Positions 10,451-19,747 of a DNA stretch of 64,000 nucleotides are shown one piece after another. The DNA comes from Bradyrhizobium semiaridum (GTDB lineage: Bacteria > Pseudomonadota > Alphaproteobacteria > Rhizobiales > Xanthobacteraceae), in the NCBI RefSeq assembly GCF_020329505.1, contig NZ_JAGKJJ010000008.1, positions 1-64,000 of the forward strand, in the 5' to 3' direction. Numbering within the stretch: position 1 is the stretch's first letter; each line of letters starts with the position of its first letter. Below the pieces are notes generated by a model. The model saw nothing but the letters and a program-made list of their open reading frames with translations. It made no database searches and was not told the DNA's origin. The translations under genes and the position numbers were made by a program.

Positions 10451-12310
10451 CTAACCGGACGTCAGCAGGTCGACCTTGGCGTTCGCCACGATCAGGCGCT
10501 CGGCGAGAAGCTGCGCGAGGTTGCGCATGATCCGCTCGCAGGCAGGCGCGTGCCGGGTGCGGAAACGGTCGAAATCCGCAATCGTCACCTCATACGCGGT
10601 TGCCGACATGTCGGCGATCACGTCCGCAGTGCGCGTCGGCTCCAGCAGCGCCATCTCGCCGAACGCCATGCCGGCGGTCAGCGTCGCAAGACGGATGCCG
10701 TCGGGCAGGGTGACGTGGACCACGCCGCTGCGCAGGAAGAACAGCGAGGTCGCCGCACTGCCGGTGGCGATGATCGTCTCGTGCGGCTGGTAGGTCCTGA
10801 CCGTGCAGAGCGCGGCAAGAGCGGCGAGCTCCGTCTCACTCAGGCCGGCGAGCAGCGGCTGCTCGCGGAGCTCGGTGGTCTCGAGGAAGTCGATCGAACC
10901 GCCATAGCGGTAGACGATCTGGTCCTCGGCCCATTCGATCGCGGTGTCGAGCAGGTAGAAATCCCTGATATTGCCGAGCTGGCTGGTCCACTCGCTGATC
11001 GTGGTCCACTCCCGCGATGCCCGCTTGATGCCCGACAGGATCACGGTGACGCCGAGCTCGGCGAGCTCCTTGAATGCTTCCGCGACCAGCCGCGCGCCGG
11101 CCCGCGTCGTCGCGGTGACGCGGCGCAGATCGAAGATCACGAATTCCGGCCGCGGTCCGCCGCCGAGGCGGCGCGAGACGTAGTCGACGTTGGAGAGCGA
11201 CAGCGTGCCGACCAGCTCGATCACGCGCACCTCCTGGAAGTGCCTCGCCAGGATTTCCTGCTCCTGCGGCCGCCGCACCCGGCGCGACGGGTTCTTGCCG
11301 ATATTGTAGTCGGCGATGATGCTGTGGCGGGCGTCGTCGCTGCGGTTCAGCATGTGCAGGTCGTAATGCGCCGACAGCGCCTCGCACACCTTGATGCCGC
11401 GCACGCTGTTGCCGTGCTTGTCGAGCTTCGGCGAGTAGCTTCCGAGCCCGAGCCGCGCCGGCAGCGCCGCCAGGATGCCACCTCCGACACCGCTCTTGGC
11501 AGGGATGCCGACGCGGTAGATCCATTCGCCGGCGTAATCATACATCCCCGACGAGGTCATCACCGAGAGCGTGCGCGCGATCGCGTAGGGCGTCATCACC
11601 TGCTCGCCGGTCAAGGGATTGATACCGCGGTTGGCGAGCGTCGCCGCCATCACCGCGATGTCGCGCGCGGTGACGAGGATGGCGCATTGCCGGAAATAGA
11701 CGTCGAGCACGTCAGGCACGTTCTCGGCGATCACGCCATTGGTGCGCAAGAGATAACCGATCGCCCGGTTGCGGTCGCCGGTGGCGCTTTCGGACGCATG
11801 GACCGCCTCGTCGACGCCGAGCTCGCGGCCGGCGAAGCGGCTGAGCGCCTGGCGGATGAAGTCGAACGCATCGTCGCCCTTGGCGGCATGGATCAGGCCG
11901 GTGCAGGCGATCGCGCCGGCATTGACCATCGGGTTGAAGGGGTGGTTCTCGGCGTTGAGCCGGATCGAGTTGAAGGGATCGCCGGAGGGTTCGACGCCGA
12001 TCACGCTCTCGACCCGATCCGCGCCCAGCGTGTCCAGTGCCAGCGCGAACGTGAACGGCTTCGACATCGACTGGATTGTAAAGGGCACCCTGGTGTCGCC
12101 GACCTCATAGACGTGACCGTCGAGGGTCGCGAGGCTGATGCCAAAATGGGCAGGGTCGGCCTTGCCCAGCTCGGGGATATAGTCGGCGACGGCGCCGCCG
12201 ACCTCAGGCAGGAAATCTGCGTAACAGCTGTGCAGAAACCGCAGCAGCGGCGGCTGCGAGCTGGTCCAGTTGACGGTGCTGGCGGTGACGGGCGGAGGCG
12301 ATTGCTTCAT
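10451..12310 (-). CDS. glsA: Glutaminase A fused to STAS and cyclic-nucleotide-binding domains
   Basis: 619 residues, twice the length of E. coli glutaminase. Residues about 20-305 form the serine-dependent beta-lactamase-like glutaminase (S81-x-x-K84 in TIQSMSKPF; NPMVNAGAIA; AKSGVGGGILA), which hydrolyses glutamine to glutamate and ammonia. Residues about 350-450 are a STAS domain (VRVIELVGTLSLSNVDYV, EFVIFDLRRVTATTRAGARL). Residues about 470-605 are a cNMP-binding fold (PHETIIATGSAATSLFFL, GMAFGEMALLEPTRTADV). Activity is therefore probably gated by a nucleotide or a STAS partner. The cNMP phosphate-binding cassette has GEMALLEPTRTA, close to canonical. The beta-helix gene upstream ends 73 bp before its start. 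Confidence 0.92.
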   Translation of the reverse strand: MKQSPPPVTASTVNWTSSQPPLLRFLHSCYADFLPEVGGAVADYIPELGKADPAHFGISLATLDGHVYEVGDTRVPFTIQSMSKPFTFALALDTLGADRVESVIGVEPSGDPFNSIRLNAENHPFNPMVNAGAIACTGLIHAAKGDDAFDFIRQALSRFAGRELGVDEAVHASESATGDRNRAIGYLLRTNGVIAENVPDVLDVYFRQCAILVTARDIAVMAATLANRGINPLTGEQVMTPYAIARTLSVMTSSGMYDYAGEWIYRVGIPAKSGVGGGILAALPARLGLGSYSPKLDKHGNSVRGIKVCEALSAHYDLHMLNRSDDARHSIIADYNIGKNPSRRVRRPQEQEILARHFQEVRVIELVGTLSLSNVDYVSRRLGGGPRPEFVIFDLRRVTATTRAGARLVAEAFKELAELGVTVILSGIKRASREWTTISEWTSQLGNIRDFYLLDTAIEWAEDQIVYRYGGSIDFLETTELREQPLLAGLSETELAALAALCTVRTYQPHETIIATGSAATSLFFLRSGVVHVTLPDGIRLATLTAGMAFGEMALLEPTRTADVIADMSATAYEVTIADFDRFRTRHAPACERIMRNLAQLLAERLIVANAKVDLLTSG

Positions 12311-12383: not shown

Positions 12384-13253
12384 TCACCGGGCGCTGACGA
12401 TCGTCGGGGTGGTGCCTTCGGCCGGATTGGCGAAGATGAGATTGTTGCCCAGACTTCGCGTCGGACCGCTGATCGCCGTGCTGTTGGAGTTGATGCTGGA
12501 GTTCGACAGCGTCACCGTCCCGGACGCAACGATGCCGATCCCGTTGAATGAGAGCTCTGTCGCCGTGACACCGACAATTGCCGTTGCATCCGTGGTGATA
12601 CCAGCCGCGCTGTTGCCGGTGAATGTCGAGTTCTTGATCATCACGCGTCCGCCATTACCGACGGCAAGCCCGTATTTGTTGTAGGCAGAGTTGACGTTGT
12701 CGAGCTCGACGCCGATGATCCCGCTGGATGGTGCAATGACGATGCCGGCGCCCGAATTGCGCACGATGCTGCTGTTGCGAACCACGAGCTTGGCCGGCCC
12801 GGCTCGATGATCGTCGATTCCGGCATTGTAGCTTTCGGCAATGATTGCATTCTCGATGTACACTTCGGCGGCGGCTTGAATAATGATCGGGATGTAGAAG
12901 CTGCCGGCGTTTATCCCGATATTCCGAAGGATGATCTTCTTCGCGGGCGCATTGATGAGGATCCGACCGGTCTCCTGCCCTCGGCCCATGCAATCGATCG
13001 TGATCGAGCGGTCGATGGTAAATGGGTAAAAATAGGCAGCATCAATACATGTAACAACCCCGCCGTCGGCCGTGGCCGCCACCGCTCGCTGAAATGACCG
13101 GCAGGTCAGGCTGGCGTTTTCGCAGCTGTTTGCATCATTTCCTTGGGCAGAGACGTAGGAGTTGAAGTTTTGTGCTTTCGCTTCCGGGATCCCCCGGACC
13201 GTCAACACTGCTGCCGTCAGCAGGATCGCAATCGACGTTGGTAGACATTTCAT
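12384..13253 (-). CDS. Exported right-handed parallel beta-helix protein (copy D)
   Basis: 289 residues from the ATG at 13253, preceded by GGAGCAATAGCC; the open frame upstream is not homologous. Signal peptide MKCLPTSIAILLTAAVLTV.. ends near EAKAQ. The mature part is a PbH1-type beta helix rich in Asn/Ser ladders (RNSSIVRNSGAGIVIAP, MIKNSTFTGNSAAGI). Cys pairs (NSCENASLTC, VTCID, TIDC) suggest disulfides in the periplasm or outside. The last 90 residues are almost identical to copies B and C, while the N-terminal half differs clearly. Binding or carbohydrate-lyase functions occur in the fold; no catalytic motif is recognised. Confidence 0.85.
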   Translation of the reverse strand: MKCLPTSIAILLTAAVLTVRGIPEAKAQNFNSYVSAQGNDANSCENASLTCRSFQRAVAATADGGVVTCIDAAYFYPFTIDRSITIDCMGRGQETGRILINAPAKKIILRNIGINAGSFYIPIIIQAAAEVYIENAIIAESYNAGIDDHRAGPAKLVVRNSSIVRNSGAGIVIAPSSGIIGVELDNVNSAYNKYGLAVGNGGRVMIKNSTFTGNSAAGITTDATAIVGVTATELSFNGIGIVASGTVTLSNSSINSNSTAISGPTRSLGNNLIFANPAEGTTPTIVSAR

Positions 13254-13305
13254 GGCTATTGCTCCGTGGCCAAGCATACAAAGGGATGATGTGGCTGACA
13301 GGCGG

Positions 13306-14187
13306 TCATCGGGCGCTGACGATCGTCGGGGCGGTGCCTTCGACCGGATTGGCGAAGATGACATTGTTGCCCAGGCTTCGCGTCGGACCGCTGATCGCCG
13401 TGCTGTTGGAGTTGATGCTCGAGTTCGACAGCGTCACCGTCCCCGACGCGACGACGCCGGTGCCGTTGAAAGAGATCTCTGTCGCCGTGACGCCGACGAT
13501 TGCTCCCGGATCCGCCGTGATCCCGGCGCCGCTGTTGCCGGTGAATGTCGAGTTCTTGATCATCACCCGTCCGCCACTGCCGACGGCAAGCCCGAATTTG
13601 TTGTAGGCGGCGTTGACGTTGTCGAGCTCGACGCCGACGACCCCGCCCGACGGCGCGATCTGGAGGCCGACGCCGGTATTGCTGACGACGCTGCTGTTGC
13701 GGATCACCAGCATGCCCGGCCCGCCCCTGCGATCGGAGAGCCCTGTGGCGGCTCCGCCGATCAGGGCGTTCTCGATGAACACGTTGGCTGCGGACTGGAT
13801 GGCGATCGACGTGCCGCCGGTATGCAACCCGTCGACGGCGATGTTTCGCAGCACCACGGTCTTGCCGGGTGCGCCGATGTAGATGTAGCCGGAATTGGGC
13901 GATCCGCCGCCTGCGAGACAGTCGATCGTGACCGAAATGGCAATGTTGACGAATCCAAAATCGCCCGGGGAAGCGCATCGAATGCTGCCGCCGTCTTTCG
14001 TCTTGCTGATGGCCGCGGAGAACGACTGGCACGCGCTGGTGGGATACAGGCAGTTGTTTGAGTCGCTTCCGCCGTTCCCTCCGCCAGCGACGAAGGTTTC
14101 GTAGACCTGCGCTCTTGCTTCCGAGGTCCATTGGGCGATCAACATCGCTGTCATAAGGGCCGTAACCGACGTCAGTAGGCGTTTCAT
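13306..14187 (-). CDS. Exported parallel beta-helix protein (copy C)
   Basis: 293 residues from the ATG at 14187, with GGAGCAATTGCC upstream. The frame is open for a further 317 codons upstream, but that stretch holds a decayed GspN-like gene, so the 610-codon frame is not one protein. Signal peptide MKRLLTSVTALMTAML.. to SEARAQ. The beta-helix part starts VYETFVAGGGNGGSD and has Cys pairs NNCLYPTSAC, IRC and TIDC. The mature protein differs from copy B at only about 8 of 267 positions, while the signal peptides differ strongly. Function unknown; secretion is expected. Confidence 0.87.
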   Translation of the reverse strand: MKRLLTSVTALMTAMLIAQWTSEARAQVYETFVAGGGNGGSDSNNCLYPTSACQSFSAAISKTKDGGSIRCASPGDFGFVNIAISVTIDCLAGGGSPNSGYIYIGAPGKTVVLRNIAVDGLHTGGTSIAIQSAANVFIENALIGGAATGLSDRRGGPGMLVIRNSSVVSNTGVGLQIAPSGGVVGVELDNVNAAYNKFGLAVGSGGRVMIKNSTFTGNSGAGITADPGAIVGVTATEISFNGTGVVASGTVTLSNSSINSNSTAISGPTRSLGNNVIFANPVEGTAPTIVSAR

Positions 14188-14251
14188 GGCAATTGCTCCG
14201 TGATCGGGAGGTGGGATGAAAGGACGATGATTGCAGTTGGTCAGGTCTCGC

Positions 14252-14831
14252 TCAGTTGTCGAACCATTCGCGGCGGCGCGGGGCGTCGGCGGCCGGGGCG
14301 TGACCCTGTCTTGCGGCATTGCATATGCCGGAGGGCGCAGCGGCAGCACCACCATCCGCTCGGCCATCTCGAAGCGGGCTCCGCTTCGGCTGATGGATCG
14401 CAATGTCCATCCCTCGCGATCGCCACCGGCGGAGAGTTTCAATATCTTGTCGGAGCTCTCGTCGCGAAACACGCCGGTCTGCAAGGATGGACCGATGATC
14501 GTGCCGATCATTACGAGCGAGGGGCGCTCCGACAGCGACACGACTGGCGCGGTAGGCGGAGGTGGCGCAGGTGCGGCGGCAAGCGCGAGCGGAGCCGGCG
14601 GGCGGCGGGATGCGGAGAACATTGGCCGCTCCCGCGTCATCGAGAGATTACCGAACGCAATAGCCCACAAGGGGTTGCCCGACTTGACGGAATCGATCGG
14701 CGCAGGATCGGGCGAAGGCGCGGACGATCTGTGCGGAGTGCCGGCAGCTCGGCAGCGGCCGCGTGCAACGGAGCGATGGCGGCTGCCACCATCAGCAAAC
14801 CAAACCCGATCCGCGAACCGCGCTGATGCAT
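14252..14831 (-). pseudogene. Broken GspN-like gene, paralog of 16978-17550
   Basis: Three frames together reproduce the intact paralog. The start and signal peptide (MHQRGSRIGFGLLMVAAAIAP, ATG at 14831) lie in one frame. The conserved body (SGNPLWAIAF, SMTRERPMFSASRRPP, LVMIGTIIGPSLQTGVF, EGWTLRSISRSGARFEMAERM) lies in a second, so a shift occurred at about 14700-14755. The C-terminal RRREWFDN with its TGA at 14252-14254 lies in a third, so a second shift occurred at about 14260-14330. Two independent shifts make a sequencing error unlikely. It lies between beta-helix copies B and C, where the intact copy lies before copy A. Confidence 0.75.
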
Positions 14832-15019
14832 CGGAAATCTGGATAAGAACGGATATGAGAAACTGTTGAAGTCGGTGGTGATCCTCCCGCATTACCGGGT
14901 GGATGTCGCCGGGACCAAAGGTCTCAGGCGCGGTCGGGGAATTATGCTGGAGGCGCGGGGTTGCGCCGATACGGCGTGCAACCGTGCGCACGGCGGCGGC
15001 ACGTCTCAGCGAGAACAGC

Positions 15020-15060
15020 GTCGTGAAGCTAATGCCAAAATGGACAGGGTCAACCTTGCC
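15020..15060 (-). pseudogene. Relic of the 5' part of the glutaminase gene
   Basis: 41 bp aligned to 12126-12166 inside glsA with 6 mismatches, all transitions (five G to A, one C to T on the + strand). Translated on the - strand it reads VDPVHFGISFTTL against ADPAHFGISLATL of the intact enzyme. It lies 40 bp past the stop of beta-helix copy B, just as the real glsA lies downstream of copy D. This fits a duplication that once carried a beta-helix gene together with the start of glsA and then lost most of the latter. Confidence 0.6.
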
Positions 15061-15100
15061 GCGCACAACCCGTTCGGCACCGACACCTACGGTCAGGCGG

Positions 15101-15985
15101 TCACCGGGCGCTGACGATCGTCGGGGTGGTGCCTTCAACCGGATTGGCGAAGATGAGATTGTTGCCCAGGCTTCGCGTTGGACCGCTGATCGCCGTGCTG
15201 TTGGAGTTGATGCTCGAGTTCGACAGCGTCACCGTCCCCGACGCGACGACGCCGGTGCCGTTGAAAGAGATCTCTGTCGCCGTGACGCCGACGATTGCTC
15301 CCGGATCCGCTGTGATCCCGGCGCCGCTGTTGCCGGTGAATGTCGAGTTCTTGATCATCACCCGTCCGCCACTGCCGACGGCAAGCCCGAATTTGTTGTA
15401 GGCGGCGTTGACGTTGTCGAGTTCGACGCCGAGGACCCCGCCCGACGGCGCGATCTGGAGGCCGACGCCGGTATTGCCGACGACGCTGCTGTTGCGGATC
15501 ACCAGCATGCCCGGCCCGCCCCTGCGATCGGAGAGCCCTGTGGCGGCTCCGCCGATCAGGGCGTTCTCGATGAACACGTTGGCTGCGGACTGGATGGCGA
15601 TCGACGTGCCGCCGGTATGCAACCCGTCGACCGCGATGTTTCGCAGCACCACGGTCTTGCCGGGTGCGCCGATGTAGATGTAGCCGGAATTGGGCGATCC
15701 GCCGCCTGCGAGACAGTCGATCGTGACCGAAATGGTGATGTTGATGAATCCAAAATCGCCCGGGGAAGCGCATCGAATGCTGCCGCCGTCTTTCGTCTTG
15801 CTGATGGCCGCGGAGAACGACTGGCATGCGCTGGTGGGAAACAGGCAGTTGTTTGTGTCGCTTCCGCCGTTCCCTCCGCCGGCGACGAAGGTTTCGTAGA
15901 CCTGCGCTCTTGCTTCCGAGGTCCACGGGACAGTCAGCGCCACCGCTGTCAGAAGGGCCGCAAGCAACATCAGTATGGGTCTCAT
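15101..15985 (-). CDS. Exported parallel beta-helix protein (copy B)
   Basis: 294 residues from the ATG at 15985 after GGAGCAATAGCC. Signal peptide MRPILMLLAALLTAVALTV.. to SEARAQ. The mature beta-helix protein is nearly identical to copy C (about 8 differences, including S/T, Y/F and V/L changes), with the same Cys pattern and the same C-terminal PTIVSAR. The start region is much less alike, which suggests recent gene conversion of the body rather than a fresh whole-gene duplication. It is 35 bp after copy A, so the two are probably cotranscribed. Molecular role unknown. Confidence 0.87.
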   Translation of the reverse strand: MRPILMLLAALLTAVALTVPWTSEARAQVYETFVAGGGNGGSDTNNCLFPTSACQSFSAAISKTKDGGSIRCASPGDFGFINITISVTIDCLAGGGSPNSGYIYIGAPGKTVVLRNIAVDGLHTGGTSIAIQSAANVFIENALIGGAATGLSDRRGGPGMLVIRNSSVVGNTGVGLQIAPSGGVLGVELDNVNAAYNKFGLAVGSGGRVMIKNSTFTGNSGAGITADPGAIVGVTATEISFNGTGVVASGTVTLSNSSINSNSTAISGPTRSLGNNLIFANPVEGTTPTIVSAR

Positions 15986-16020
15986 GGCTATTGCTCCAGC
16001 GTTGAGATTCATCGACGCAA

Positions 16021-16902
16021 TCATTGCGTCGGTGGTTGTCCGTTGGAGGAGTTGGCAAAGATGCGGTTGCCGCCCGCACTCTGGGTCGGCCCCTGGATCG
16101 CGACGCTGTTGGAGTCGATGGTCGAATTGTGCAGCGAAACCGTCGCTCCGGTTGACGAACTGACGCCGATCGAATTGAACGAGCTTTGCGTGGAGGTGAT
16201 GCCGATGATCGTGCCCGGATCGGCGTGGATGCCTGCCACGCCGTTGCTGGTGAACACCGAGTTCTTGATCATGACGCGCCCGCCGCTGGCAACGGCGAGG
16301 CCATAGCGATTGTAGTCGGCGTGGACGGTATCGAGCTCGACCCCGATCACTCCGCTCGTCGGTGCGACAAGGATGCCGACGCCTGCATTGCTCACGATGC
16401 TGCTGTTGCGGATCACCAGCACCGCCGGCCCGGCACGATGGTCTTTGATACCGGGGGTGCCGCTACCGCGTGCTCCGGCAACAAGGACGTTCTCAATGTA
16501 CACGCTGCCGGCCGCCTGGATGTCGATCGGAATGAAATTGGGGAGGAGCAGCGGGTTCACCGCGATATTTCGCAGTATGACCGTTTTCCCCGGGGCATTG
16601 ACAATGATCTGCTGAGTACTGACGGCTCCGCCTCCCGCAGCGCAATCGATCGTGACTGACTTGGTGATCGTTAAACCACCAAAGACTGCCAGATCGACAC
16701 ATTGAACGTTTCCGCCGTCGTCTGTCTTGGCTAGCGCACCGGCCAGTGTCCTGCACGCGCTGGCGGCAGCGAAACAGTCGTTTGCGTCGTTTCCTGAAGT
16801 CGAGACGTAGGTCGAAACTGCTGCGCTTGCTTCCGAGGTCCATTGGACGTTCAACGAAATCGTTGTCAGAAGGACTGCAATCAACGTCAGTAAACGATGC
16901 AT
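16021..16902 (-). CDS. Exported parallel beta-helix protein (copy A)
   Basis: 293 residues. The ATG at 16902 follows GGAGCAATAGTC, the same leader found before copies B, C and D. Signal peptide MHRLLTLIAVLLTTISLNV.. to SEASAA. The beta-helix ladder includes GVIGVELDTVHADYNRYGL and MIKNSVFTSNGVAGIHAD; Cys pairs NDCFAAASAC, VQC and TIDC match the paralogs. It is the most divergent copy, lacks the shared PTIVSAR ending, and follows the intact GspN-like gene by 75 bp. Exported; substrate or ligand unknown. Confidence 0.87.
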   Translation of the reverse strand: MHRLLTLIAVLLTTISLNVQWTSEASAAVSTYVSTSGNDANDCFAAASACRTLAGALAKTDDGGNVQCVDLAVFGGLTITKSVTIDCAAGGGAVSTQQIIVNAPGKTVILRNIAVNPLLLPNFIPIDIQAAGSVYIENVLVAGARGSGTPGIKDHRAGPAVLVIRNSSIVSNAGVGILVAPTSGVIGVELDTVHADYNRYGLAVASGGRVMIKNSVFTSNGVAGIHADPGTIIGITSTQSSFNSIGVSSSTGATVSLHNSTIDSNSVAIQGPTQSAGGNRIFANSSNGQPPTQ

Positions 16903-16977
16903 GACTATTGCTCCGTGGTTAAAAGCTGGAATGAACGGGATCGGTACGGCCCGATGGCTTTGGCCGGCTCTTCCTCC

Positions 16978-17550
16978 TCAGTTGTCGAACCATTCGCGGC
17001 GCCGCGGTCCGGTGGCTTGCGAAGCAGCCTTGCCTGCCAGGATCGGCTGCGTTGAAGGATGCAGTGGCAACACCACGGTCCGGTCCGCCATCTCGAAGAG
17101 CGCGTCGTTCCGGCTGACCGAACGCAAGGTCCATCCCCTGCGGTTTCCACCGGCGGCGAGCTTGATGATCGCGTCGGAATTCTCCTCGCGAAAGAGTCCT
17201 GCTTGCAACGATGGCCCGATGATCGTGCCGATCAGAACGAGCGGCGGACGCTCGGGTGCCGATACGACAGGTGCTGGGGGTGGCGAGGGCGCTGCGGGTA
17301 CGATGGCAACGACGGGCGGGGTGGGACGTCGACGGGACATGGAGAACAGCGGCCGCTCTCGCGTCATGGAGAGGCGGTCAAAGGGGACTCCCCACAAGGG
17401 GTTGCCCTGCGGTGCAACGTCGATCTGCGCCGGATTGCGCAAACGCACGCGTGGGGTCACTGCGTCCGACGACTCAACGACCGCGGCCTGCGCCGCAGCG
17501 GTGGCCGCCAGCAGAAAAACAAGACCAGACCGCAGACCGCGCTGACCCAT
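16978..17550 (-). CDS. GspN-like protein (type II secretion accessory type), intact copy
   Basis: 190 residues with a signal or anchor MGQRGLRSGLVFLLAATAAAQ. The central signature is NPLWGVPFDRLSMTRERPLF, a Pro-rich linker (PPVVAIVPAAPSPPPAPV), then LVLIGTIIGPSLQAGLF and WTLRSVSRNDALFEMADRTVVLPL, ending REWFDN. From memory this matches short proteins annotated as GspN in alphaproteobacterial type II secretion loci, which resemble the GspC homology region. No other Gsp gene is nearby. Its place before four exported beta-helix genes suggests a dedicated export or assembly role, but that is inference. Confidence 0.6.
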   Translation of the reverse strand: MGQRGLRSGLVFLLAATAAAQAAVVESSDAVTPRVRLRNPAQIDVAPQGNPLWGVPFDRLSMTRERPLFSMSRRRPTPPVVAIVPAAPSPPPAPVVSAPERPPLVLIGTIIGPSLQAGLFREENSDAIIKLAAGGNRRGWTLRSVSRNDALFEMADRTVVLPLHPSTQPILAGKAASQATGPRRREWFDN

Positions 17551-17689: not shown

Positions 17690-19747
17690 TCACACTTCAC
17701 GGATTCGCGGAACACCTGCCCGCCTGATCAGCACGAGCGCGATCAGCACCGTCGGCGCGAGGATCGCAAGTCCCAGCAGCGTCATTTGCAGCTGCGACAG
17801 CGGGTTGATGCCGCCGCCGGGCGTCGCGATCACGAAGCCGCCGATCACCAGCAGCACCCGGAGCGGCCATTCCAGCGGCCCGGCGCGGCTGAGGTCGCCG
17901 ACGAAGGCCTGATAGCCCTGGATGCCGCCGCAGATGAACAGCGTGCCGAACGCCGCGAGCCCCATCAGGCCGAGGCCGGCGAGATAGGGGCTCGGTCCCT
18001 GCATAACCAGCGCCGGGTTCAGCACGAAGAAGAACGGGATGAAGTAGATGATGCTGCCGACCCACATCGATTCCCATCCGGTCTTCATGGCCGGCGAACC
18101 GGCGATGCCGGCCGCGGCGAAGGAGGCGATCGCGACCGGCGGGGTGATCGACGACAGCATGCCCCAGTAGAAGATGAACATGTGTACCGCCATCCGGTTC
18201 AGCCCGAGCTTCTCCAGCGCGGGCGCCACCAGGATGGCGAGGAAGATGTAGCAGGCCGTCGTCGTCAGCCCGAGGCCGAGGATCAGGCTGGTCAGGGCGC
18301 ACATCACGAGCAGCAGGAATGCGTTGTCGCCGGCGAGCGTCAGCAGATCGTTGGCGAGGCTCGAGACCACGCCGGTCATCGAGAAGGCGCCGATCAGGAG
18401 ACCGCATCCGGCGAGGATACCGACCAGCTCGACGAAGGTGCGGCCGTTGACCTCGAGGAATTTTGCGATCGTCGCCGGCGTCCAGCGCGTGTCCTTCGAG
18501 AAGATCTGGTTCAGCACCAGCAGCAGCGCCGTGGCGTAGAACGGGGCGTGGCTCTCGCGCTTGAAGTAGAGCAGCATCACGACCAGCAGCGCGATGACGA
18601 AGACGTAGTACCAGCCGTCCTTGATCGTATCCATCACCCGCGGCAGCTCGGCGCGCGGAATGCCCTTCAGGCCGTGGCGTGCGGCGTAGGAATCGACCTG
18701 CATGAACAGGCCGATATAGTAGAGCGTGGCCGGGATGATCGCGGCGACCGCGACCTCGGCGTAGCTGACATTGAGGAATTGCGCGATCACGAAGGCGGTG
18801 GCGCCCATCACCGGCGGCGCCAGCACCGCGCCGGTGGAGGCGCAAGCCTCGATCGCGCCGGCATAGGACGCACGAAAGCCGCTCTTCTTCATCACCGGGA
18901 TCGTCATGGTGCCGGCGGTCAGCACGTTGGAGATGATCGAGCCCGACATCATGCCGAGCAGGCCGGAGGCGAAGATGCAGACCTTGGCCGCGCCGCCGCG
19001 GAAGGTGCCGCACAGCGCGAAGGCGATGTTGATGAAGAATTTTCCGGCCCCGGTCATCATCAGCGCGGTGCCGAACACGAGGAAGCCGATCACGGTGTCG
19101 GCGAAGGCCTGGATCGGAATGCCGAGCAGGCTCTCGCCCGACAGCACGTGATAGGCGGTGGCCTGGTCGAGCGTGAGCTGCGAGCCGCGGAAGGGGCCGA
19201 GCCAGCTCGCCTCGGCGAACAGCGGGTAGACCGTGAAGGGCAACACGCTGAGCAGCAGGCTCCAGCCGCCGGTCCGCCGCAGCGCCTCCATCAGCATCGC
19301 CCACATCACGAGGCCGGCGATGATGACGTTGCGCGGCGCGCCGTCGGATTCCCAGCCATATTGCGCCGCCTTGCGCACGTTCAGCATCAGCCAGATCGAC
19401 GCGGCGAAGGTCGCCGCCGCGAGCACGAGGTCGTACCAGGGAATGCGGTTCAGCGGCGCGCCCTCCGTTCCCGGGAAGATCAGGAAGGTGAAGGGCAGCA
19501 TCAGCGCGATCAGCAAGTAGAAATATTCGGTGTTGAGCTGGGTGTAGTCGACGAAGAAGCGCAGCGAGAATTGCTGGTTGATGCAGAGCAGGATGGTCGC
19601 CGCGGTCGCGACCACCAGCGCCCAGCGCCAGGCGCCGCGCAGGGTGCGCACGCGCGTGACTTCGGCCTCCTGCAAATTGCCGAGGCCGGCATGGGGATCC
19701 TCGAACTCGATCTTCTTCGCAGGCGCAGCCGTGGCGCTATCGGGCAT
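17690..19747 (-). CDS. TRAP transporter fused permease, TAXI type
   Basis: 685 residues with many hydrophobic spans, the length of the fused small (4TM) and large (DctM) TRAP permeases seen in TAXI systems. The N-terminus is cytosolic (KKIEFEDPHAGLGNLQEAEV). Landmark sequences are GAAKVCIFASGLLGMMSGS, ACASTGAVLAPPVMGATAF and WGMLSSITPPVAIASFAAAGIAGS, typical of the DctM substrate-translocating part. It drives uptake across the inner membrane with an ion gradient, fed by the periplasmic protein encoded 47 bp upstream. The substrate is unknown; TAXI systems often take up dicarboxylates or amino acids. Confidence 0.92.
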   Translation of the reverse strand: MPDSATAAPAKKIEFEDPHAGLGNLQEAEVTRVRTLRGAWRWALVVATAATILLCINQQFSLRFFVDYTQLNTEYFYLLIALMLPFTFLIFPGTEGAPLNRIPWYDLVLAAATFAASIWLMLNVRKAAQYGWESDGAPRNVIIAGLVMWAMLMEALRRTGGWSLLLSVLPFTVYPLFAEASWLGPFRGSQLTLDQATAYHVLSGESLLGIPIQAFADTVIGFLVFGTALMMTGAGKFFINIAFALCGTFRGGAAKVCIFASGLLGMMSGSIISNVLTAGTMTIPVMKKSGFRASYAGAIEACASTGAVLAPPVMGATAFVIAQFLNVSYAEVAVAAIIPATLYYIGLFMQVDSYAARHGLKGIPRAELPRVMDTIKDGWYYVFVIALLVVMLLYFKRESHAPFYATALLLVLNQIFSKDTRWTPATIAKFLEVNGRTFVELVGILAGCGLLIGAFSMTGVVSSLANDLLTLAGDNAFLLLVMCALTSLILGLGLTTTACYIFLAILVAPALEKLGLNRMAVHMFIFYWGMLSSITPPVAIASFAAAGIAGSPAMKTGWESMWVGSIIYFIPFFFVLNPALVMQGPSPYLAGLGLMGLAAFGTLFICGGIQGYQAFVGDLSRAGPLEWPLRVLLVIGGFVIATPGGGINPLSQLQMTLLGLAILAPTVLIALVLIRRAGVPRIREV

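Follow-up and report, generated by a model that had tools for sequence, protein, structure and literature searches.

Why should a small gene with the marks of a secretion component stand directly before a row of genes for exported beta-helix proteins, outside any type II secretion system (T2SS) cluster? We address this question for a minus-strand array of Bradyrhizobium semiaridum that lies within a 64,000-nucleotide stretch (hereafter the window), in which one intact small gene precedes four tandem beta-helix genes (PbH A to D), with a second, broken small-gene copy between B and C. We read the array, with a probability of about 0.5, as a movable operon that joins an orphan GspC-type clamp to its likely cargo and uses a T2SS encoded elsewhere in the genome.

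Identity of the small protein

A profile built from 60 relatives (55 of the 74 GspC-type proteins from other genomes and 5 from the host genome, excluding near copies and one over-long frame) matched the HR domain of GspC in the PDB (2lnv) with an E value of 1.3e-4; an earlier PDB search with only four GspC-type rows had returned nothing useful. The predicted model of the small protein contains a confident six-strand domain at residues 101–160 (block means 94–97), whose best structural match is the GspC HR domain 3oss_C (Z score 10.4, root-mean-square deviation 1.9, 63 residues aligned). Other HR-type folds also match, namely PilP (2lc4, Z 9.0) and GspB (4wfw, Z 7.0), and Foldseek returned 3oss_C with a probability of 1.00 and an E value of 9e-3. 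Among the NCBIfam models for GspC, taken up to an E value of 0.1, NF041515 matched 53 of the 60 relatives (best E 2.8e-12), NF041616 matched 41 and TIGR01713 matched 22, against 1 match to the T2SSB family PF16537 (E 0.088), 9 to the PilP family and 5 to XpsN. By these sequence models we favor GspC over GspB or PilP as the closest relative. Since the PDZ or coiled-coil C-terminus is missing, we file the product as a GspC-type HR protein and do not call it a complete GspC. In GspC, the HR domain is known to bind the secretin GspD at its N0 domain (PMC3169554).

The sequence-only reading, an earlier interpretation of this DNA, had called the small gene GspN-like and expected similarity to GspN or GspC domains. 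The GspC half of that expectation stands, by profile and by fold. The GspN name is wrong and was rejected, because PF01203 (GspN) was found neither in the protein, nor among the families of its 60 relatives, nor in the host genome. By Pfam, PF11356 (GspC) was likewise absent from the host genome; E. coli and Caulobacter matched it among 14 controls.

By eye, the N-terminus of the small protein is hydrophobic and its leader ends in an Ala-x-Ala-like motif; the model has block means below 60 for residues 1–50. This motif may mean that the protein is not anchored in the membrane; the N-terminus could be either an anchor or a cleaved leader. We found no close orthologs of the window's GspC-type gene in named genomes, a search from which the own species was possibly left out. 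The tree discussed below was built without L161, L162 and L164, and L163, which had no tblastn match, entered neither tree nor alignment.

Recurrence of the pair and its relation to T2SS clusters

The pair of a GspC-type gene and PbH genes occurs in the window and in three more Bradyrhizobium genomes (G190, G021 and G088), at three sites in all, and in each of the four genomes the GspC-type gene comes first, directly before PbH. G190, one of 265 genomes of the genus screened (70 of them, the host included, hold PbH at E ≤ 1e-10), carries an intact GspC-type gene with 61% identity to that of the window; three PbH genes follow in tandem, and glmS-like and recG-like genes (names assigned by eye) lie nearby. 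G021 and G088 share a third site with like flanks, where one GspC-type gene is followed by one PbH gene; over 18,201 bases, the G088 locus matches Bradyrhizobium sp. BR 10289 without a difference, as the G021 locus matches B. betae Opo-243. The window's array site is empty in both, a transporter gene being followed by the glutaminase gene about 57 bases on. Using tblastn with two GspD sequences of the host, we detected no GspD beside the pair in G190, G021 or G088; on the window's own contig the one secretin found lies at C88:170277, some 150 kb off.

In the tree, the window copy, the broken copy and the G190 copy form one clade (support 100/100), and those of G021 and G088 form a separate one. 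A single origin of the five pairing GspC-type rows is neither shown nor rejected by the approximately unbiased test (p-AU 0.22), leaving room for one clade as well as for two origins of the pairing. If the origin was single, the pair was kept through three sites down to identities of 32–34% (GspC-type) and 29% (PbH). Between G088 and G021, the two genes of the pair differ by synonymous divergences (dS) of 0.08 and 0.13, and the G088 pair is intact. Chance adjacency was rejected: from at most 10 PbH genes per 7 Mb, we estimate far fewer than one PbH within 0.5 kb among ~80 loci, and adjacency was seen in four genomes. These pairs, together with a visible block duplication in the window, bear out the suggestion of the sequence-only reading that the original unit was the small gene plus one or more PbH genes, duplicated here. 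Its expectation that the two families would be neighbors elsewhere holds in part: direct adjacency is confined to 2 of 75 loci from other genomes plus G190, whereas proximity at 16–35 kb through T2SS clusters is common.

Specifically, 24 of the 38 PbH matches outside the host genome, in 18 of 24 genomes, share a contig with a GspC-type gene 16–35 kb away, and in 17 of these 18 genomes that gene is accompanied by 5–9 other gsp genes (the 18th locus, in G010, is too short for a judgment). Owing to shared descent these counts are not independent, and as a binomial value would assume independence and a single mean genome, we use the counts alone. At L094, L098/L099, L101/L102 and L108, the intervening DNA is the T2SS cluster itself, with PbH ~2–10 kb beyond gspD, and the host's own cluster on contig C55 follows the same plan. 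Twenty further PbH regions, taken from the top of the PbH match list with six from G190 and thus not giving a rate, comprised nine with T2SS genes, two remnants, the G190 array and eight with PbH alone. Of the six further PbH genes of the host, five (on C46, C1, C110, C44 and C54) had no GspC-type gene nearby among the host's own matches. Two loci, L211 (G108:C71) and L212 (G213:C105), hold fragments of a GspC-type gene close to PbH and a Sel1-repeat gene, and the fetched stretch showed no gsp core genes; they look like lost T2SS clusters with PbH left behind.

Such loci raise the possibility, which we consider unlikely, that the pair itself remains from a T2SS cluster that moved or decayed: its PbH and GspC-type genes would belong to one cluster, have stayed together by chance and serve no special function. 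PbH and GspC-type genes do flank the same clusters, G108 and G213 hold the fragments just described, and one of the two small-gene copies in the window is broken. However, the clusters (read at L094 and L108) and both remnants run PbH first and GspC-type last, the reverse of the order in the pairing genomes, and the GspC-type copies of the window and G190 are both intact, with a nonsynonymous divergence (dN) of 0.34 against a dS of 0.80. A relic formed by simple internal deletion of a T2SS cluster was rejected, as it would give the opposite gene order.

GspC-type relatives were present in 53 of 98 genomes of the genus, the host included, and we read the neighborhoods of 75 loci from other genomes (L048 and L050 only as a 3.4 kb locus). 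At 52 of them, at least two other gsp genes lie alongside, with the GspC-type gene often directly after gspM, and from its sequence context the family appears to take the place of GspC in Bradyrhizobium T2SSs. Two Bradyrhizobium genomes with T2SS genes have been described as incapable of type II secretion, gspC being absent (PMC4070871). Since a divergent GspC-type gene sits among the gsp genes, often after gspM, in the clusters read here (from strains other than those two), the reported absence may be a matter of annotation. An autotransporter-like gene separates gspM from the GspC-type gene in 17 of the 52 loci (the one checked carries PF03797 with PATR); the copy inside the cluster at L094 (3264–6884) spans 1,200 residues where read, and L165 holds a short piece of such a gene.

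The remaining loci are diverse. At eight, an orphan GspC-type gene lies divergently beside genes for a TonB-dependent receptor and a spermidine-synthase-like protein (one pair checked). The GspC-type rows of these loci (L096, L097, L100, L103, L104, L105, L109 and L146) form one clade (100/100), and the spermidine-synthase-like protein is large. In Caulobacter, the gene immediately upstream of the T2SS genes encodes a TonB-dependent receptor (PMC2996285). As receptors of this kind are not known as cargo of T2SSs, the HR protein of these eight loci may act with a different partner. Five loci combine gspD with a giant TPS-domain gene, as on host contig C1 (TPS checked on C1 and L106), and three others, where the fetched stretch showed no gsp gene, have a phosphate-binding-like gene and a TPS-domain giant. 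Two are the direct pairs of G021 and G088 (L110 and L113). At one, L152 (8892–11453), an orphan GspC-type gene directly follows a tannase/feruloyl esterase gene, a further case of a clamp beside an enzyme of the secreted kind. Four loci (L050, L122, L163 and L166) stay unassigned; at L163 (676–2735), an HR-like protein with an N-terminus hydrophobic by eye follows a GspM-like gene and precedes a pectate-lyase-like beta-helix gene (PF12708).

This diversity of orphan neighbors (TonB receptor 8, TPS giants without gsp genes 3, PbH 2, tannase 1) would also suit a small protein that acts as a general T2SS accessory, an alternative GspC with its own regulation that serves all cargo, PbH adjacency reflecting shared control. 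A precedent exists in Pseudomonas aeruginosa, where XphA/XqhA form a GspC–GspD pair that is encoded away from the xcp locus and controlled differently (PMC6567927). However, shared control by itself would not necessarily preserve a PbH pairing at three sites despite the low identities given above, and we regard this explanation, too, as improbable.

The host genome encodes three T2SS sets with three GspE genes. Two are clusters, on C55 and C27; the third lies on C1 (L025 1–12000 and L033 1–6402; L064, at the end of C44, is grouped with it), its secretin being cut by contig ends. Downstream of the GspC-type gene of this third set comes a ~4,400-codon open frame that carries a TPS domain, and periplasmic-binding-like genes lie further on. 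T2SS GspD and GspE were found in 10 of 11 genomes checked that carry orphan GspC-type genes, G088 being the exception. The proposal of the sequence-only reading that the small protein and PbH form a self-contained module for export and display without a T2SS is thus unsupported and, in our view, very unlikely: the intact pair of G088 speaks for it, but HR is a secretin-binding domain, we know of no export by an HR domain alone, and because G021 has a T2SS and the two pairs differ by a dS of only ~0.1, G088 could have lost its T2SS recently.

Layout, duplication and homogenization of the array

The array lies on contig C88 of a 6.7 Mb genome, between genes for a TRAP-type transporter and a glutaminase (Table 1). 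Gaps within units measure 35–75 bases, and from its sequence the layout reads as one or two operons. The coordinates and strand given by the sequence-only reading were right, as was the dead copy it placed between B and C; its beta-helix ladders and conserved cysteine pairs are borne out below, and its signal peptides by eye. The common leader it described needs qualification: a near-identical Shine-Dalgarno box stands 8 bases 5' of the ATG in all four PbH genes, and a pattern with two free letters occurs four times in the window, always in the array, yet the exact form GGAGCAATAGCC occurs twice, before B and D only, with one change each before A and C.

Table 1. Features of the array and its flanks, in window positions.
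Feature	Coordinates	Strand	Description
Small gene (GspC-type)	17550-16978	minus	190 aa, intact
Regions of the GspC-type small protein			hydrophobic N-terminus; motif NPLW..P...LS.TRERPLFS..RR and Pro-rich linker, ~50-98; HR, ~100-165; tail end RRREWFDN
PbH A	16021..16902	minus	293 aa; right-handed beta-helix; signal peptide by eye
PbH B	15101..15985	minus	start at leader-linked ATG; 96% nucleotide identity with C over 904 bases
Glutaminase scar	15017..15060	minus	44-base copy of 5' coding part; matches 12123-12166, 84%
Broken second copy of GspC-type gene	~14831-14252	minus	pieces in three frames, at least two frameshifts
PbH C	13306..14187	minus	PF13229
PbH D	12384..13253	minus	last third homogenized with B and C; first two thirds divergent
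Flanking glutaminase gene (name by eye)	10451..12310	minus	619 aa; adjoins TRAP gene in two relatives in which this site is empty
Flanking TRAP-type transporter gene (name by eye)	17690..19747	minus	685 aa

All four PbH proteins match PF13229 (Beta_helix) above the Pfam cut-off, have N-terminal hydrophobic leaders that by eye resemble signal peptides, and lack an Fn3 domain by Pfam. The predicted model of PbH A is a beta-helix (mean predicted local distance difference test score 88.7) whose nearest chain is 8ja4 (Z 26.1). Its fold matches are too general for a guess at the substrate, as they spread over many polysaccharide lyases and phage tailspikes at Z 22–26. Cys 43 and Cys 50 (PbH A numbering) are invariant in 15 of 15 aligned relatives. 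A PDB search with the PbH profile gave nothing at E ≤ 1, and a scan with the 15-row alignment yielded no usable pattern.

Comparing the window with itself, we found that 13349–14722 matches 16052–17449 at 68% identity. This match and the glutaminase scar show that a block consisting of the small gene, two PbH genes and the 5' part of the glutaminase gene was duplicated in place. The intact small gene and the unbroken piece of the broken copy differ by a dS of ~1.1. Although the duplication is thus old, PbH B and C are 96% identical, with a dS of 0.05, so they must have been homogenized later. Identity between B and D is 0.47–0.65 over the first 180 alignment columns and reaches 0.96 over the last 43; two of the three G190 genes rise similarly, from 0.50–0.69 to 0.91. 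Over the same 43 columns, window and G190 genes are only 0.63–0.79 identical, and PbH A stands at 0.63–0.66 to B–D, sharing little in the homogenization. Gene conversion acting on the last third of the genes inside each array would account for this pattern, while the first two thirds diverge. Both arrays (window 12384–16902; L200 5603–8477) are mosaics with a variable front and, A excepted, a last third that is uniform within each genome.

Proposed mechanism and comparison with known systems

Under our preferred reading of a clamp paired with its likely cargo, the small gene and the PbH genes would be co-transcribed, and the PbH proteins would enter the periplasm through their signal peptides and fold there into beta-helices. 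The small protein, either attached to the inner membrane or soluble in the periplasm, would dock through its HR domain on N0 of a GspD secretin that a T2SS cluster elsewhere in the genome encodes; there it would replace that cluster's GspC-type protein or act alongside it. The docked clamp would then bring the PbH proteins to the secretin pore, to be released from the cell or displayed on it. Beta-helix pectate lyases are known T2SS cargo read by GspC and GspD, but their signal lies in loops of an added Fn3 domain (PMC7949064), which by Pfam is absent from the PbH proteins. Helper proteins encoded next to T2SS cargo are an established class (PMC4713064).

Several observations weigh against this reading. 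Taken alone, the window's small protein has no Pfam or NCBIfam match; among its 60 relatives, PF11356 was matched by one (E 0.022), and PF23893 (Y4YQ_C) weakly by 13 (best E 0.0022). Foldseek gave nothing at E ≤ 0.001, and in place of the PDZ or coiled-coil part, which other GspC proteins use in substrate choice, the HR domain is followed by ~25 low-confidence residues. Many PbH genes stand alone, as in the eight regions counted above, and their secretion by a T2SS is a prediction from sequence. G088 keeps its intact pair with neither a T2SS GspE nor a T2SS GspD, its only secretin matches being three at 27–30% identity; either its T2SS was lost lately or the pair has no need of one. Other neighbors of GspC-type genes (TonB receptors, autotransporters with their own beta-domain and TPS giants) have other known routes, and adjacency alone is therefore no proof of cargo. 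Cargo choice is accordingly the weakest step, because the usual PDZ part is missing and these other neighbors have export routes of their own.

How T2SSs select their cargo is an open question, with GspC and GspD as known readers (PMC7949064). The persistence of the GspC-type/PbH pairing at other sites in relatives points to cargo genes that may move together with a docking clamp of their own. Where a clamp gene moves with its putative cargo, deleting that single small gene would put cargo choice to the test. In the open-access literature, screened by titles and the beginnings of abstracts, with subscription papers mostly outside this scope, we found no description of such clamp/cargo pairs. 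More tentatively, the Bradyrhizobium GspC clamp may have separated from the T2SS operon and, having multiplied, taken on the role of a plug-in adaptor, each orphan clamp pairing with one class of surface or secreted protein on shared secretins. If so, new cargo could be gained by moving one small operon, and PbH A to D would form a set of variants with a common leader, a homogenized last third and diversifying first two thirds.

Compared with known systems, the small protein resembles GspC/PulC/OutC in its HR fold and sequence profile and in having an N-terminal hydrophobic segment and linker before HR. It differs in lacking the C-terminal domain, which in GspC is a PDZ or a coiled-coil depending on species (PMC12802150), and in that the window copy lies outside a gsp cluster, directly before exoprotein-type genes. 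GspB/OutB, PilP and XpsN are likewise short proteins, with an HR-type fold in GspB and PilP, yet far fewer relatives match them than GspC. GspN/PulN shares the place after gspM in the operon, perhaps the source of the GspN label; unlike the small protein, it is an AsmA-like beta-taco protein for lipoproteins (PMC12802150). XphA/XqhA (PaQa) of P. aeruginosa also place a GspC-type protein away from the main T2SS locus, but bring their own GspD-type partner, and the accessible part of the report mentions no adjacent cargo gene (PMC6567927). The T2SS chaperones LipB/CpaB/Lif are encoded beside their cognate effector and, in Acinetobacter, needed for its T2SS export; they are membrane-anchored, and no HR domain is mentioned in the accessible part of that source (PMC4713064). 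The small gene described here adjoins PbH, a putative T2SS effector, in four genomes.

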